32,014 nt of DNA from contig PWME01000034.1 in NCBI GenBank assembly GCA_003559235.1, positions 1 to 32,014 on the forward strand, given 5' to 3'. The stretch is from Mollicutes bacterium (GTDB lineage Bacteria; Bacillota_I; Bacilli_A; Izemoplasmatales; Izemoplasmataceae). Positions within the stretch are counted from its first letter, which is position 1, and each line of letters starts with the position of its first letter. The position numbers and the translations under genes were made by a program. Below, one piece after another: positions 15,227-19,167 of this stretch. The notes beneath the pieces were generated by a model, which saw nothing but the letters and a program-made list of their open reading frames with translations, was not told the origin of the DNA and did not search any database.

Positions 15227-15260
15227 AAAAATGCGAACCCGCCCAAGGTCCGCATTTTTT
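15227..15260. terminator. Bidirectional intrinsic terminator between lipoprotein and crt gene
   Basis: Stem AAAAATGCG...CGCATTTTT with A-run and T-run on the two sides, between convergent genes. Confidence 0.8.
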
Positions 15261-16750
15261 TATGATAAATCCTCTTTTAATGCTTTATGTACTAACTTGC
15301 CGCTTGTAATCGCAATGGGAACCCCTGCGCCTGGATGGGCGCTACTTCCTGCAAAATACAAGTTTTTTGCATAAGGATGCACATTTTTAGGGCGATAGTA
15401 ATTGCTTTGCTTTAAGGTTGGTGCAAGCCCAAACGTCGCCCCATACATGGCGTTTAACTCTTTGTCAAAACGATCGGGTGTCATCATTTCTAAAAACTCA
15501 ATATGGTTTTGGAAGTTTTCAAATCCCTCAAGTTTTTCAATCTTATTAAAGATTTTTTCTTTATAAGATTCTTTCAGTTCATCTGTCCACGGCGTTTGCA
15601 TGGTTTTGAGCTCAGGCACTGGCACTAAAACGTATATTCCTTCTTTTCCTTTAGGTGCAACTGAGTCATCCACTCGGCTTGGACTGTAAATATAAAACGC
15701 TGGGTCACTTGGCAGTAATCCTGTGAAGATTTCGCGGAGGTTTTCATCAAAATCAGACCCAAAGTATAGATTGTGCACCTGTAAATTATCGATTTGTTTA
15801 TCGAGGCCAATGTAAAGCAAAAACACACTACATGAATAATCCATCTTAGCGATTTTTTTGTCTGTATACTTGCCTTTAACTTTGGGCGATTGAATTAGAT
15901 GTTTCATCGCATAGGGAAAGTCAGCATTACAGACAACAGCATCGGCTTCAATGGTCTTTGTTTTGGTTTGAACCCCCGTAGCGCGTGTGCCATCAAAGAC
16001 AATCGATTCAACTTCAGTATCGAGCTTTAACGTGCCACCAAGTTCTTTGAACCTGCGTTCTAACGCTTCCGCATAGGCATACATACCACCCTTTGCGTAT
16101 GAAACACCATAAAGCGTTTCAATCATTGGAATGATGGTATAAATCGACGGTCCCTTTTTAGGGCTAATGCCAATATATAAGGTTTGAAAAGAAAGCAATT
16201 TTTGAATTTTTTCATTTTTAACATACTTTGCAATGGTATGATGCGCACTATCAAATGTTTTTAGTTTCAACCCTTGCCATAACGTTTTCGGGTTATAAAA
16301 ATCACTAGGCTTGCGGAATGTACGCTCAATAAAGTGGTTTTTCGCGACCAAATATTTTTTATACGTTTCATTGAGATACGTCAAATAACCAGAAGCGGCC
16401 GCTTCGCCTTTTGGTTCTAAATCTCTTATAATATTTACCAGATCCGTTGACGCATCAATCGTTTCACCATCATCAAAGGTGACGCGGTACATTGGCTCTA
16501 ATGTATTAAATTTGATGTAATCATCAGGATTCACACCAGTATACGAGAGCGTTTCTTTGTATACATGGGGCATCATCACAATTGTTGGACCTAAATCGAA
16601 GGTGAATCCCTTACCTTTGATGCGGTTCATTTTACCGCCAACGTCGCTTCTTCGCTCTAAAAGTATGACATTATAGCCATCGTGTTGTAAACGAACTGCA
16701 GCGGTTAAGCCGGCAACGCCAGCGCCTACGACAACCACTTTCTTTTGCAT
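15260..16750 (-). CDS. Phytoene / diapophytoene desaturase (CrtI/CrtN family)
   Basis: N-terminal VVVVGAGVAGLTAAVRLQHDGYNVILLERRSDVGGKMN dinucleotide-binding motif; FTFDLGPTIVMMP; C-terminal NLYFAGSSAHPGAGVPIAITSGKL, all carotenoid desaturase hallmarks. Confidence 0.95.
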   Translation of the reverse strand: MQKKVVVVGAGVAGLTAAVRLQHDGYNVILLERRSDVGGKMNRIKGKGFTFDLGPTIVMMPHVYKETLSYTGVNPDDYIKFNTLEPMYRVTFDDGETIDASTDLVNIIRDLEPKGEAAASGYLTYLNETYKKYLVAKNHFIERTFRKPSDFYNPKTLWQGLKLKTFDSAHHTIAKYVKNEKIQKLLSFQTLYIGISPKKGPSIYTIIPMIETLYGVSYAKGGMYAYAEALERRFKELGGTLKLDTEVESIVFDGTRATGVQTKTKTIEADAVVCNADFPYAMKHLIQSPKVKGKYTDKKIAKMDYSCSVFLLYIGLDKQIDNLQVHNLYFGSDFDENLREIFTGLLPSDPAFYIYSPSRVDDSVAPKGKEGIYVLVPVPELKTMQTPWTDELKESYKEKIFNKIEKLEGFENFQNHIEFLEMMTPDRFDKELNAMYGATFGLAPTLKQSNYYRPKNVHPYAKNLYFAGSSAHPGAGVPIAITSGKLVHKALKEDLS

Positions 16751-16937
16751 TGTATCACCCTTTCACATAAGACTATTTTACTGAAAAACTGCCTTGTTGT
16801 AAATGATTAATAGCTATTTTAAGACAAAATATAGAATACACCACCATCATAATTTCTCGAGGTTTTTGGGGTGCTTGCATTTACTTTAAGCCATTTTTTC
16901 GGTATAATCGGGGTAACACGACAAAGTGGGGTTTAAT

Positions 16938-17801
16938 ATGGACAAATATGAGTATTGCGAAAACATTATTAAAGAAAAAAGTGAAAGTTTTTACAAAGCA
17001 TTTAGTGAGTTAGAACCAGACAAAGCCAAAGCGGTTTATGCAATTTACGCGTTTTGTCGCGAAGCGGACGATGCAATTGATGAACACAACGACTTAGAAA
17101 AAGTGAATACGTTAAAAGCAAACATCAAGAAAACCTTCGAAGGCAATGTGCCTGAGGGCAACTTGTTGTTCGAAGCGCTTGCGGATACGTTCAAGCGTTA
17201 CCCATCACAAATTGACCCTTATCTTGAATTGCTTGATGGGATACGCGATGATTATTACTTTGAAGCCTTCAAGACTGAAGATGAACTCGAACAATATTGT
17301 TACAAGGTCGCTGGAACCGTTGGTCTTATGCTTTTGCCTGTCATTGCCAGTGAAAACTACAAAACGGATTCAAAAAAACTTAAAGAAGTCGCGGTTGAAC
17401 TTGGTAAAGCCATGCAGCTGACCAATATTTTGCGGGATGTCCGCAATGACTTAATGAAAGACCGCGTCTATTTTTCTGAAGAAATCATCGAACAACACCA
17501 AGTCAAAATCGAAATGATTCGTACGGGACTTGTCATTCCTGAATGGCGTTCGATGATGGAATACTACATTGACAAAACCAAAAACAAATACAAAGTGTTT
17601 TATGATAATGTTGAACTGTTTGATAAAGATGCTCGGTTGCCCACCATGCTTGCTGCAAGCTATTATGAAGGAATTTTAGATGAAATTGCGAAAAAGGATT
17701 ACTCTAATATAAACAAACGTCATTACGTAGGGAATTTTCGCAAACGACGTCTTGCAAAACAATCCGAAAAATCTCTGAAGAAACAAGGACTGATTGAATG
17801 A
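16938..17801 (+). CDS. Phytoene/squalene synthase family protein (CrtB/CrtM)
   Basis: SESFYKAF, YAIYAFCREADDAIDE (first Asp-rich motif), GKAMQLTNILRDVRNDLMKDRVYF (second Asp-rich motif). Confidence 0.95.
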   Translation: MDKYEYCENIIKEKSESFYKAFSELEPDKAKAVYAIYAFCREADDAIDEHNDLEKVNTLKANIKKTFEGNVPEGNLLFEALADTFKRYPSQIDPYLELLDGIRDDYYFEAFKTEDELEQYCYKVAGTVGLMLLPVIASENYKTDSKKLKEVAVELGKAMQLTNILRDVRNDLMKDRVYFSEEIIEQHQVKIEMIRTGLVIPEWRSMMEYYIDKTKNKYKVFYDNVELFDKDARLPTMLAASYYEGILDEIAKKDYSNINKRHYVGNFRKRRLAKQSEKSLKKQGLIE

Positions 17802-18424
17802 GCGGGCTGCTTTGGTCTTACGGTTTCGTATTTGCCGTAATCGGCCTAAGCACCTTACTCGATAAATTGAACGTTTTTGATGATGAAGGCAGTCGTAAGT
17901 TTATCCATATTGGCGTTGCCAACTGGTGGCTTATTGCCATGTGGCAGTTTGAAGGACAGTGGACGCTTGCCATCATACCACCGGCAACGTTTATTGTACT
18001 AAATTACTTGTCTTACCGCTTTAATCTTCTTAAATCTATGGAACGTGACCAACAGTCCACACGTGATTTAGGAACCGTTTATTATGCAATAAGTTTGTTT
18101 ATTATTACTGGATTTGCGTTTTATTTTGACTTGCTTTTACTGGGTTTGATCGCTATTTTTGCGATGGGATACGGAGACGGTTTAGGCGCGGTCATTGGCA
18201 AACGTTTCGGAAAACGAAAAATTACAAATGGTAAAACCATTGCGGGGTCATTGACCATGCTTCTCGCTACATTAATTATAGGCGTTATTGCATTTCCCGA
18301 ACAATGGTACCTCATGATCTTCGTTGCGTTTATCGCCATGTTTATTGAACTATTGACAGCGCGCGGCTTAGACAACCTTACCGTGCCACTTGGTATTTTC
18401 TTATTACTGGTGGTGATTTTATGA
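17798..18424 (+). CDS. Phytol kinase / dolichol kinase-like (VTE5/SEC59-type CTP-dependent prenol kinase)
   Basis: DDEGSRKFIHIGVANWW (RKxxHI), GYGDGLGAVIGKRFGKRKITNGKTIAGSLTM, typical of the phytol/dolichol kinase-CDP-DAG synthase-related family. ATGA overlap with the crtB stop. Confidence 0.88.
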   Translation: MSGLLWSYGFVFAVIGLSTLLDKLNVFDDEGSRKFIHIGVANWWLIAMWQFEGQWTLAIIPPATFIVLNYLSYRFNLLKSMERDQQSTRDLGTVYYAISLFIITGFAFYFDLLLLGLIAIFAMGYGDGLGAVIGKRFGKRKITNGKTIAGSLTMLLATLIIGVIAFPEQWYLMIFVAFIAMFIELLTARGLDNLTVPLGIFLLLVVIL

Positions 18425-19167
18425 GTCTAGAGGCTTTTATTATCGGTTTTATTGCCAGTGCGCTCGTTGGCGCTTATGCAATGCATAAAAACAGCCTAAC
18501 GCTCTCAGGATGGAGCGCGGCCGTTTTTATAGGGACACTATTATATGGTTTTGCGGGTGGCTATGCCTTTTTCTTACTTATGGTATTTTTTGGGTCAAGT
18601 TCACTCATTAGTCGCTTTAACCCCGATAAAGTTTCATCAAAACGGACTGCCGTGCAAGTTTTTGCCAACGGATTACCGGCAGCCATCGTGGCAATTTTTT
18701 ATGGGTTTTTGGGATATTTAGAACTTTATGCCCTCATGATTGCCTCCATTGGCATTGCGACAACCGACACATGGAGCAGTGAAATCGGGCGTTTATCAAA
18801 ACACCCACCACGCCACATCTTTACCCTTAAGCCTATAAAGACAGGATTAAGTGGTGGCGTTACATTGCTTGGATTTTTAGCAAGTGCGGGTGCAGCCTTA
18901 TTAATGACCGCCTTAAGCGTTCCTGTTGTGCCTTCACTGCCGCTACTATCTGGCATCTTTCTTTTTAGTTTCTTAGGCAGTGTGATCGACAGTATGCTCG
19001 GTGTCATTCAAGTGAAATATAAAGATATTTTAGGGGATGTTACAGAATTAAAAACGGCCGCAATTGAAAAGCATAGTGGGCTCAGCTTTCTAGATAACAA
19101 CCTCGTCAATGCTTATTCAAACGGCCTCGGAATACTTGCGTTTATTATTTACATTACCCTTTTATAA
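18421..19167 (+). CDS. DUF92 / TMEM19 / VTE6-like family (phytyl-phosphate kinase-like) membrane protein
   Basis: FGSSSLISRFNPDKVSSKRTAVQVFANG, IATTDTWSSEIGRLSK, FSFLGSVIDSMLGVIQVKY, matching DUF92 family landmarks. ATGA overlap with the upstream gene. Confidence 0.88.
   Translation: MSLEAFIIGFIASALVGAYAMHKNSLTLSGWSAAVFIGTLLYGFAGGYAFFLLMVFFGSSSLISRFNPDKVSSKRTAVQVFANGLPAAIVAIFYGFLGYLELYALMIASIGIATTDTWSSEIGRLSKHPPRHIFTLKPIKTGLSGGVTLLGFLASAGAALLMTALSVPVVPSLPLLSGIFLFSFLGSVIDSMLGVIQVKYKDILGDVTELKTAAIEKHSGLSFLDNNLVNAYSNGLGILAFIIYITLL

Follow-up and report, generated by a model that had tools for sequence, protein, structure and literature searches.

Prenol kinase genes are known from few organisms, most of them photosynthetic or parasitic. 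VTE5, FOLK and VTE6 of plants and VTE5 of Synechocystis are tested enzymes with a preference for cytidine triphosphate (CTP), and "missing pathway" is the term that has been used for a gene pair converting farnesol or geranylgeraniol into the diphosphate (PMC9782597). COG1836, which corresponds to VTE6 and DUF92, has been placed under phytol-phosphate metabolism and was reported to be essential in Synechocystis (PMC3223725), and from a Sec59-DUF92 fusion of Methanosarcina barkeri (Mbar_A3310), next to which uppS is conserved, Makarova et al. predicted an isoprenoid kinase step (PMC5898192). Here, we analysed one entire contig of 32,014 nucleotides (PWME01000034.1, hereafter the window) of a wall-less Mollicutes bacterium (GCA_003559235.1; 1.7 Mb, 90% complete, 261 contigs), whose relatives carry the labels Candidatus Izimaplasma or Mollicutes and are of sediment origin. 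In the window, genes encoding a VTE5-like and a DUF92 membrane protein follow a crtB-type carotenoid synthase gene, and the three probably form a prenol-to-carotenoid module in which the two-step phosphorylation of a C15 or C20 prenol would feed the synthase. This reading rests on gene order, gene overlaps, co-occurrence, co-decay, fusions, conserved residues and the absence of trans-prenyl synthases in relatives.

The operon consists of the gene encoding a crtB/crtM-type head-to-head prenyl synthase (16938..17801, forward strand, 287 amino acids, aa), the gene encoding a VTE5/FOLK/PolK-like (COG0170-type) membrane kinase, a putative prenol kinase (17798..18424, forward strand, 208 aa), and the gene encoding a DUF92/COG1836/VTE6-like membrane protein, a putative prenyl-phosphate kinase (18421..19167, forward strand, 248 aa). 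Both junctions are ATGA stop/start overlaps on the forward strand (17798..17801 and 18421..18424), the first being kept as an overlap or near-overlap in relatives, and since the gene order is conserved across relatives these overlaps are not due to chance. A crtI/crtN-type carotenoid desaturase gene (15260..16750, reverse strand, 496 aa) diverges from the operon and stands outside it as a separate transcript. A first-pass annotation of this DNA had reported this layout and the two junctions, and the genes as well as the overlaps were confirmed at these positions; of its description of the synthase as fused into an operon, the three-gene operon holds, and no fused genes occur within the window. 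The listed crtB start was GTG 16926, but ATG 16938, with GGGG just 5' of it, is more likely the start because the proteins of relatives begin with M(D/E)KYEY.

Regarding conservation, a search with a VTE5 alignment, with one genome per species, confirmed 473 stretches, and 80 of these (80 species) were kept. The carriers, many of them anaerobic, include Acholeplasma, Paracholeplasma, Soehngenia, Tissierellales, Clostridium, Eubacterium callanderi, Acetobacterium and spirochaetes. DUF92 is adjacent to or fused with VTE5 in 68 of the 80 species, and CrtB is encoded directly upstream of VTE5 in 40, all of which also have DUF92. Single-chain VTE5-DUF92 fusions were detected in nine species, and on the tree of the VTE5 domain the fused state requires four changes, at least three of which are forced by well-supported branches. 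Among the 49 genomes of the window's family, the order crtB-VTE5-DUF92 is kept in about 19, followed by a convergent PHP gene, and crtI adjoins the trio in only some. The flanking genes vary by lineage and Acholeplasma granularum has the order VTE5-crtI-crtB-DUF92; the association therefore outlasts rearrangement. Conservation beside carotenoid genes, which the first-pass annotation had named beforehand as a test of its interpretation, is thus strongly borne out by the 80-species survey and the family genomes.

The kinase pair and the synthase are also coupled in presence and in decay. Within the family, cassette-type VTE5 and CrtB occur together in 22 genomes, each without the other in three, and neither in 21 (p=8.5e-8, uncorrected for shared ancestry). 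In all three genomes with CrtB and no VTE5 (G010, G012 and G085) the first aspartate motif of CrtB is lost, reading YAFYIEARNAVV, YAFYQMASDAVR and YAYYEHAQSAIE, respectively, instead of YAFCRxADDAID; it is also lost in G001, which keeps a diverged pair, and partly altered in G086, in which the pair is present. All genomes of the family with a readable full-length CrtB and an intact motif also have the pair. The motif-less CrtB homologues, which are full-length open reading frames (L141:7353-8228 in G010, L140:1213-2139 in G012, L150:1374-2255 in G085 and L041:1815-2702 in G001), are possibly pseudo-enzymes or proteins of new function, perhaps similar to YisP.

In the VTE5-like protein, R33-K34-x-x-H37 (RKFIH codons at 17894..17908, forward strand) is invariant in an alignment of 20 family sequences, and this RKxxH clamp is present in 79 of the 80 relatives. 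In PfPolK, a Plasmodium prenol kinase of tested activity, the clamp consists of Arg29, Lys30 and His33, and Glu179 is the hinge (PMC10849223). The R-K-x-x-H spacing is the same in both proteins, and the invariant E184 of the VTE5-like protein lies 147 residues past the clamp compared to 146 for Glu179, spacing being compared between unaligned sequences. D127-x6-G134 and K146-T-x2-G150 are likewise invariant in the family alignment, and the predicted model is confident and all-helical (predicted local distance difference test, pLDDT, 90). No library profile fits as the identity of this gene, and the assignment to the kinase family, which draws on residues and context, appears well supported. 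A second, diverged VTE5-like paralogue of about 250 aa is encoded elsewhere in the window genome (L144:4175-4918, G000:C165), with similar genes in G012, G015, G023 and G031; it lies away from DUF92, often adjoins another small membrane-protein gene, and retains RK-x-x-H in the window genome's copy.

The DUF92 protein matches PF01940 with 167.6 bits (gathering score 27.5), and its predicted model is confident (pLDDT 95). It scores 79.2 bits against the 205.85 of TIGR00297, a hypothetical equivalog, which weakens a subgroup claim only and not DUF92 membership. D116 and D190 are invariant in 20 sequences and may be the two aspartates noted as important in the DUF92 family (PMC5898192). Membership of the kinase family is well supported by the profile, and the function is a predicted one. 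Best matches to non-kinase families, which the first-pass annotation had held to be damaging, were not seen for either protein, DUF92 being well above its own cut-off and the VTE5-like protein having the clamp of PfPolK. Sequence searches of the PDB with profiles of both proteins gave chance matches only, and since a profile-profile comparison between the two was not significant, no homology between them is claimed. A diverged second DUF92 in G031 (L042:1081-1839, G031:C48) adjoins a gene that by eye resembles archaeal phosphoglycerate mutase and is probably archaeal contamination of that assembly.

The synthase matches SQS_PSY (PF00494) with 205 bits against a cut-off of 26 and has both Asp-rich motifs intact, the first being CREADDAID (17055-17081, forward strand) and the second NILRDVRND. 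Among solved structures, it is closest to E. hirae 5iys, the CrtM structure 8is6 and S. aureus CrtM. F22 and Y34 (287-aa numbering) align with F26 and W38 of S. aureus CrtM, positions which, from CrtM mutants, we take to limit chain length to C30; both are aromatic in the window's CrtB, as they are in 5iys and the two CrtM structures. Because the synthase is nearest to the CrtM types and the prenyl synthase of the window genome is of the farnesyl diphosphate (FPP) type, we lean towards FPP and a C30 carotenoid, with farnesol likelier as the prenol than geranylgeraniol and geranylgeranyl diphosphate (GGPP); this is a lean and not a result, since CrtB reaches no equivalog cut-off for phytoene, presqualene or squalene synthase. 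Of the FPP or GGPP first proposed as the product of the kinases, FPP is favoured and GGPP appears less likely. The crtI-type protein reaches 443 bits with TIGR02734 (cut-off 238), and its closest solved structures are the phytoene dehydrogenase 4dgk and the gamma-carotene desaturase 4rep. Two more CrtI-family genes in the window genome (L134:3104-4588, C149, and L135:8587-10155, C192), which by eye lie beside a UbiB-like kinase gene and a probable membrane methyltransferase gene, respectively, suggest a longer carotenoid pathway. In G013, G023 and G024, CrtB and the kinase pair are present, yet no CrtI was detected above cut-off, and the product there may remain a colourless C30 or C40 membrane hydrocarbon.

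Regarding substrate supply, the window genome encodes IspH of the methylerythritol phosphate (MEP) pathway and a PF00348 synthase with the motif HTYSLIHDDLPAMDDDD, which reads as FPP-type by the chain-length rule for these enzymes. Prenol salvage into carotenoids, as originally suggested, would therefore be a supplement in this organism and not its sole supply. Among the CrtB-bearing relatives, a PF00348 match is absent in 14 of 25; the trio-bearing G013, G015, G024 and G031 (91-96% complete) lack it, as do six of six genomes of genus g16, which belongs to the window's family. In a wider set it is absent in nine of 23 genomes, including the isolates Acholeplasma equifetale and Paracholeplasma vituli, the clusters of which contain crtB, VTE5 and DUF92 (in A. 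equifetale with crtI beside crtB only as a short stretch), and four further trio-bearing genomes also lack it. All 14 control genomes gave a PF00348 match, and a family-specific FPP synthase profile detected nothing at E<=10 in 15 rechecked genomes and recovered the enzyme in three of three genomes expected to have it. Incompleteness of metagenome-assembled genomes is an unlikely cause of these absences, given the six g16 genomes and the two isolates.

UppS is present in every genome checked except G064, and a marker of either the MEP or the mevalonate (MVA) pathway, IspH or mevalonate decarboxylase, was found in each genome tested for both; a total loss of isoprenoid synthesis was thus rejected as an argument for salvage. 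Such genomes appear to make isopentenyl diphosphate (IPP) and cis-polyprenyl chains with no visible trans-FPP/GGPP enzyme, and the kinase pair suggests itself as a candidate for their source of FPP or GGPP. Across the family, PF00348 is absent in 34 of 49 genomes, although UppS was found in every member checked.

With a nucleoside triphosphate (CTP in tested relatives) as donor, the VTE5-like protein of the proposed module would phosphorylate a prenol, of which farnesol is the most likely and geranylgeraniol a possible one, and the DUF92 protein would add the second phosphate to give FPP (or GGPP). The CrtM-like synthase, judged at the level of its family, would then join two diphosphates head to head, and CrtI-type desaturases, encoded by the divergent gene and by two others of this genome, would yield a coloured carotenoid. 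The prenol could be imported from sediment or be regained after hydrolysis of the cell's prenyl phosphates, two sources that sequence cannot separate. For relatives lacking a trans-prenyl synthase, no source of the CrtM-like synthase's substrate other than the module is visible. The stronger proposal, that g16, A. equifetale and P. vituli make carotenoids wholly from scavenged or recycled prenols, with FPP or GGPP supplied by VTE5-DUF92 alone and IPP used elsewhere, is a tentative one that we consider rather doubtful.

Several points weigh against the module. Its enzyme steps and metabolites are inferred from sequence; the VTE5-like protein has no Pfam match even at E<=10 and one spurious match in NCBIfam, neither library having been confirmed to contain a model for its family, and a fold search with the models of both membrane proteins gave no significant match to a solved structure. 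Compared to the CTP motif of dolichol kinase, DxxAxxxGxxxGx8KKTxEG (PMC5853391), D-x6-G ... K-[ST]-x2-G is retained in 73 of the 80 relatives, with the Ala, second Lys and Glu not kept. PF00348 is also absent in relatives that have neither CrtB nor the pair (e.g., G006, G008 and G016); its absence is therefore a trait of the lineage and not of the cassette, and was rejected as proof of salvage, and FPP may possibly come from a different, unrecognised source. Finally, the kinase pair is often, not always, tied to a carotenoid synthase and is not exclusively carotenoid: CrtB is not adjacent in 28 of the 68 VTE5-DUF92 pairs, and G022 and G029 hold the pair with no CrtB in the genome.

These last exceptions fit a general recycling of prenols and polyprenols for all users of prenyl diphosphates, among them UppS and undecaprenyl phosphate synthesis, with crtB co-expressed or just one customer, as do the uppS neighbours of archaeal DUF92 (PMC5898192) and the presence of UppS where FPP synthase is absent. 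Within the family, however, the pair tracks CrtB, which decays where the pair is missing, and G016 has UppS with neither PF00348 nor the pair, so that UppS can do without it; we regard general recycling as unlikely. A closed farnesol cycle, in which a CrtB-like protein or another phosphatase frees farnesol from FPP and the kinases rebuild FPP with no external uptake, is improbable. The B. subtilis homologue YisP reportedly releases farnesol from FPP, and its structure (3we9) falls in the same superfamily as CrtB, but YisP is much less similar to the window's synthase than the CrtM types are (99 vs 220 bits), and this synthase has its two catalytic motifs intact, with a desaturase gene opposite its own; degenerate CrtB copies in relatives and the markers of IPP synthesis in the trio genomes tested would suit such a cycle, which leaves unexplained the first origin of FPP in genomes without a trans-prenyl synthase. 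That both membrane proteins are CdsA/CarS-like lipid nucleotidyl- or phosphotransferases acting on another lipid, e.g., in carotenoid modification or anchoring, is scarcely probable either: the two families are close to the cytidylyltransferase fold (PMC5898192), CdsA (a cytidylyltransferase, near the top of the ranking) and CarS are among the weak fold matches, the dolichol-kinase motif is partial and tocopherol-cyclase-like genes lie close by in some relatives, but the clamp matches that of PfPolK, the two-domain fusion suits two successive phosphorylations and plant VTE6 is described as a phytyl-phosphate kinase (PMC9782597). The prenol-to-carotenoid module remains the interpretation we favour, and the original proposal appears partly supported, for its genes and their evolution.

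Regarding the surroundings of the cassette, the divergent intergenic region (16751..16937) contains a promoter-like site for each strand, TTTACT-17-TATAAT (16880-16908, forward) and TTTACA-17-TAAAAT (16803-16775, reverse); both are consensus matches only, and the total count of such sites is no higher than in shuffles. Genes encoding PHP, Rad50-like and pyroglutamyl-peptidase proteins adjoin the cassette in synteny and are not obviously members of the module. In Acholeplasmataceae, heliorhodopsin (PF18761), tocopherol-cyclase-family (PF14249) and photolyase genes often flank the cassette (L067, L072, L074, L082, L093 and L095), and in Acetobacterium a tocopherol-cyclase-family gene directly follows DUF92 (L130:9505-10521); the PF14249 gene of these non-photosynthetic anaerobes perhaps encodes a carotenoid hydratase-like protein. 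Heliorhodopsins beside carotenoid genes, in a light-related setting, were noted earlier, the excerpted part of that source making no mention of the kinases (PMC8612252). The window genome itself encodes a heliorhodopsin-like protein (L136:12770-13627, C223; by eye against PF18761 relatives), about 4 kb from its only FPP-type prenyl synthase gene.

The first-pass annotation knew of no described bacterial cassette of this kind. This holds for the link to crtB/crtM, since no description of a crtB/crtM-linked kinase pair in bacteria was found in the open-access literature searched, and does not hold for the kinase pair and the archaeal fusion, which were predicted before (PMC5898192, PMC3223725); what appears to be new is the bacterial link to a carotenoid synthase. 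A compact operon that has single-chain fusions in species that can be cultured, and carotenoid as its visible product, would make the prenol kinase pathway directly testable, and would offer a concrete hypothesis for how Mycoplasmatota bearing carotenoid genes and lacking FPP/GGPP synthase supply their synthase. The two genes could also be put to use where isoprenoids are to be produced from supplied prenols, and a carotenoid supply from prenols only would, if true, be a salvage-fed pathway not described so far for bacteria.

Compared to known systems, the VTE5-like protein resembles the plant phytol and farnesol kinases VTE5/FOLK, Synechocystis VTE5 and PfPolK in being a small polytopic membrane protein with R-K-x-x-H; its Glu about 147 residues downstream may correspond to the hinge, and the same first step, prenol phosphorylation, is proposed for it. 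It differs from them in its bacterial, non-photosynthetic host, its length of about 208 aa and its lack of a Pfam or NCBIfam match, and its gene lies beside a carotenoid synthase gene and not in a setting of tocopherol or phylloquinone metabolism. With the phytyl-phosphate kinase VTE6 the DUF92 protein shares PF01940, two invariant aspartates and a VTE5-type partner, but it likely acts on a C15 or C20 prenyl phosphate and not on phytyl phosphate. The archaeal Mbar_A3310 has the same two domains in a single chain and the same predicted kinase step as the bacterial VTE5-DUF92 proteins, with uppS as its neighbour and no reported link to a carotenoid synthase, whereas the bacterial cassette has crtB. 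As in the CrtM/CrtN C30 genes of Bacillota (S. aureus and E. hirae), the synthase is closest to the CrtM structures and a CrtI/N desaturase gene is adjacent; unlike those systems, the operon of the window adds two kinase genes, and some of its carriers are without any FPP synthase.

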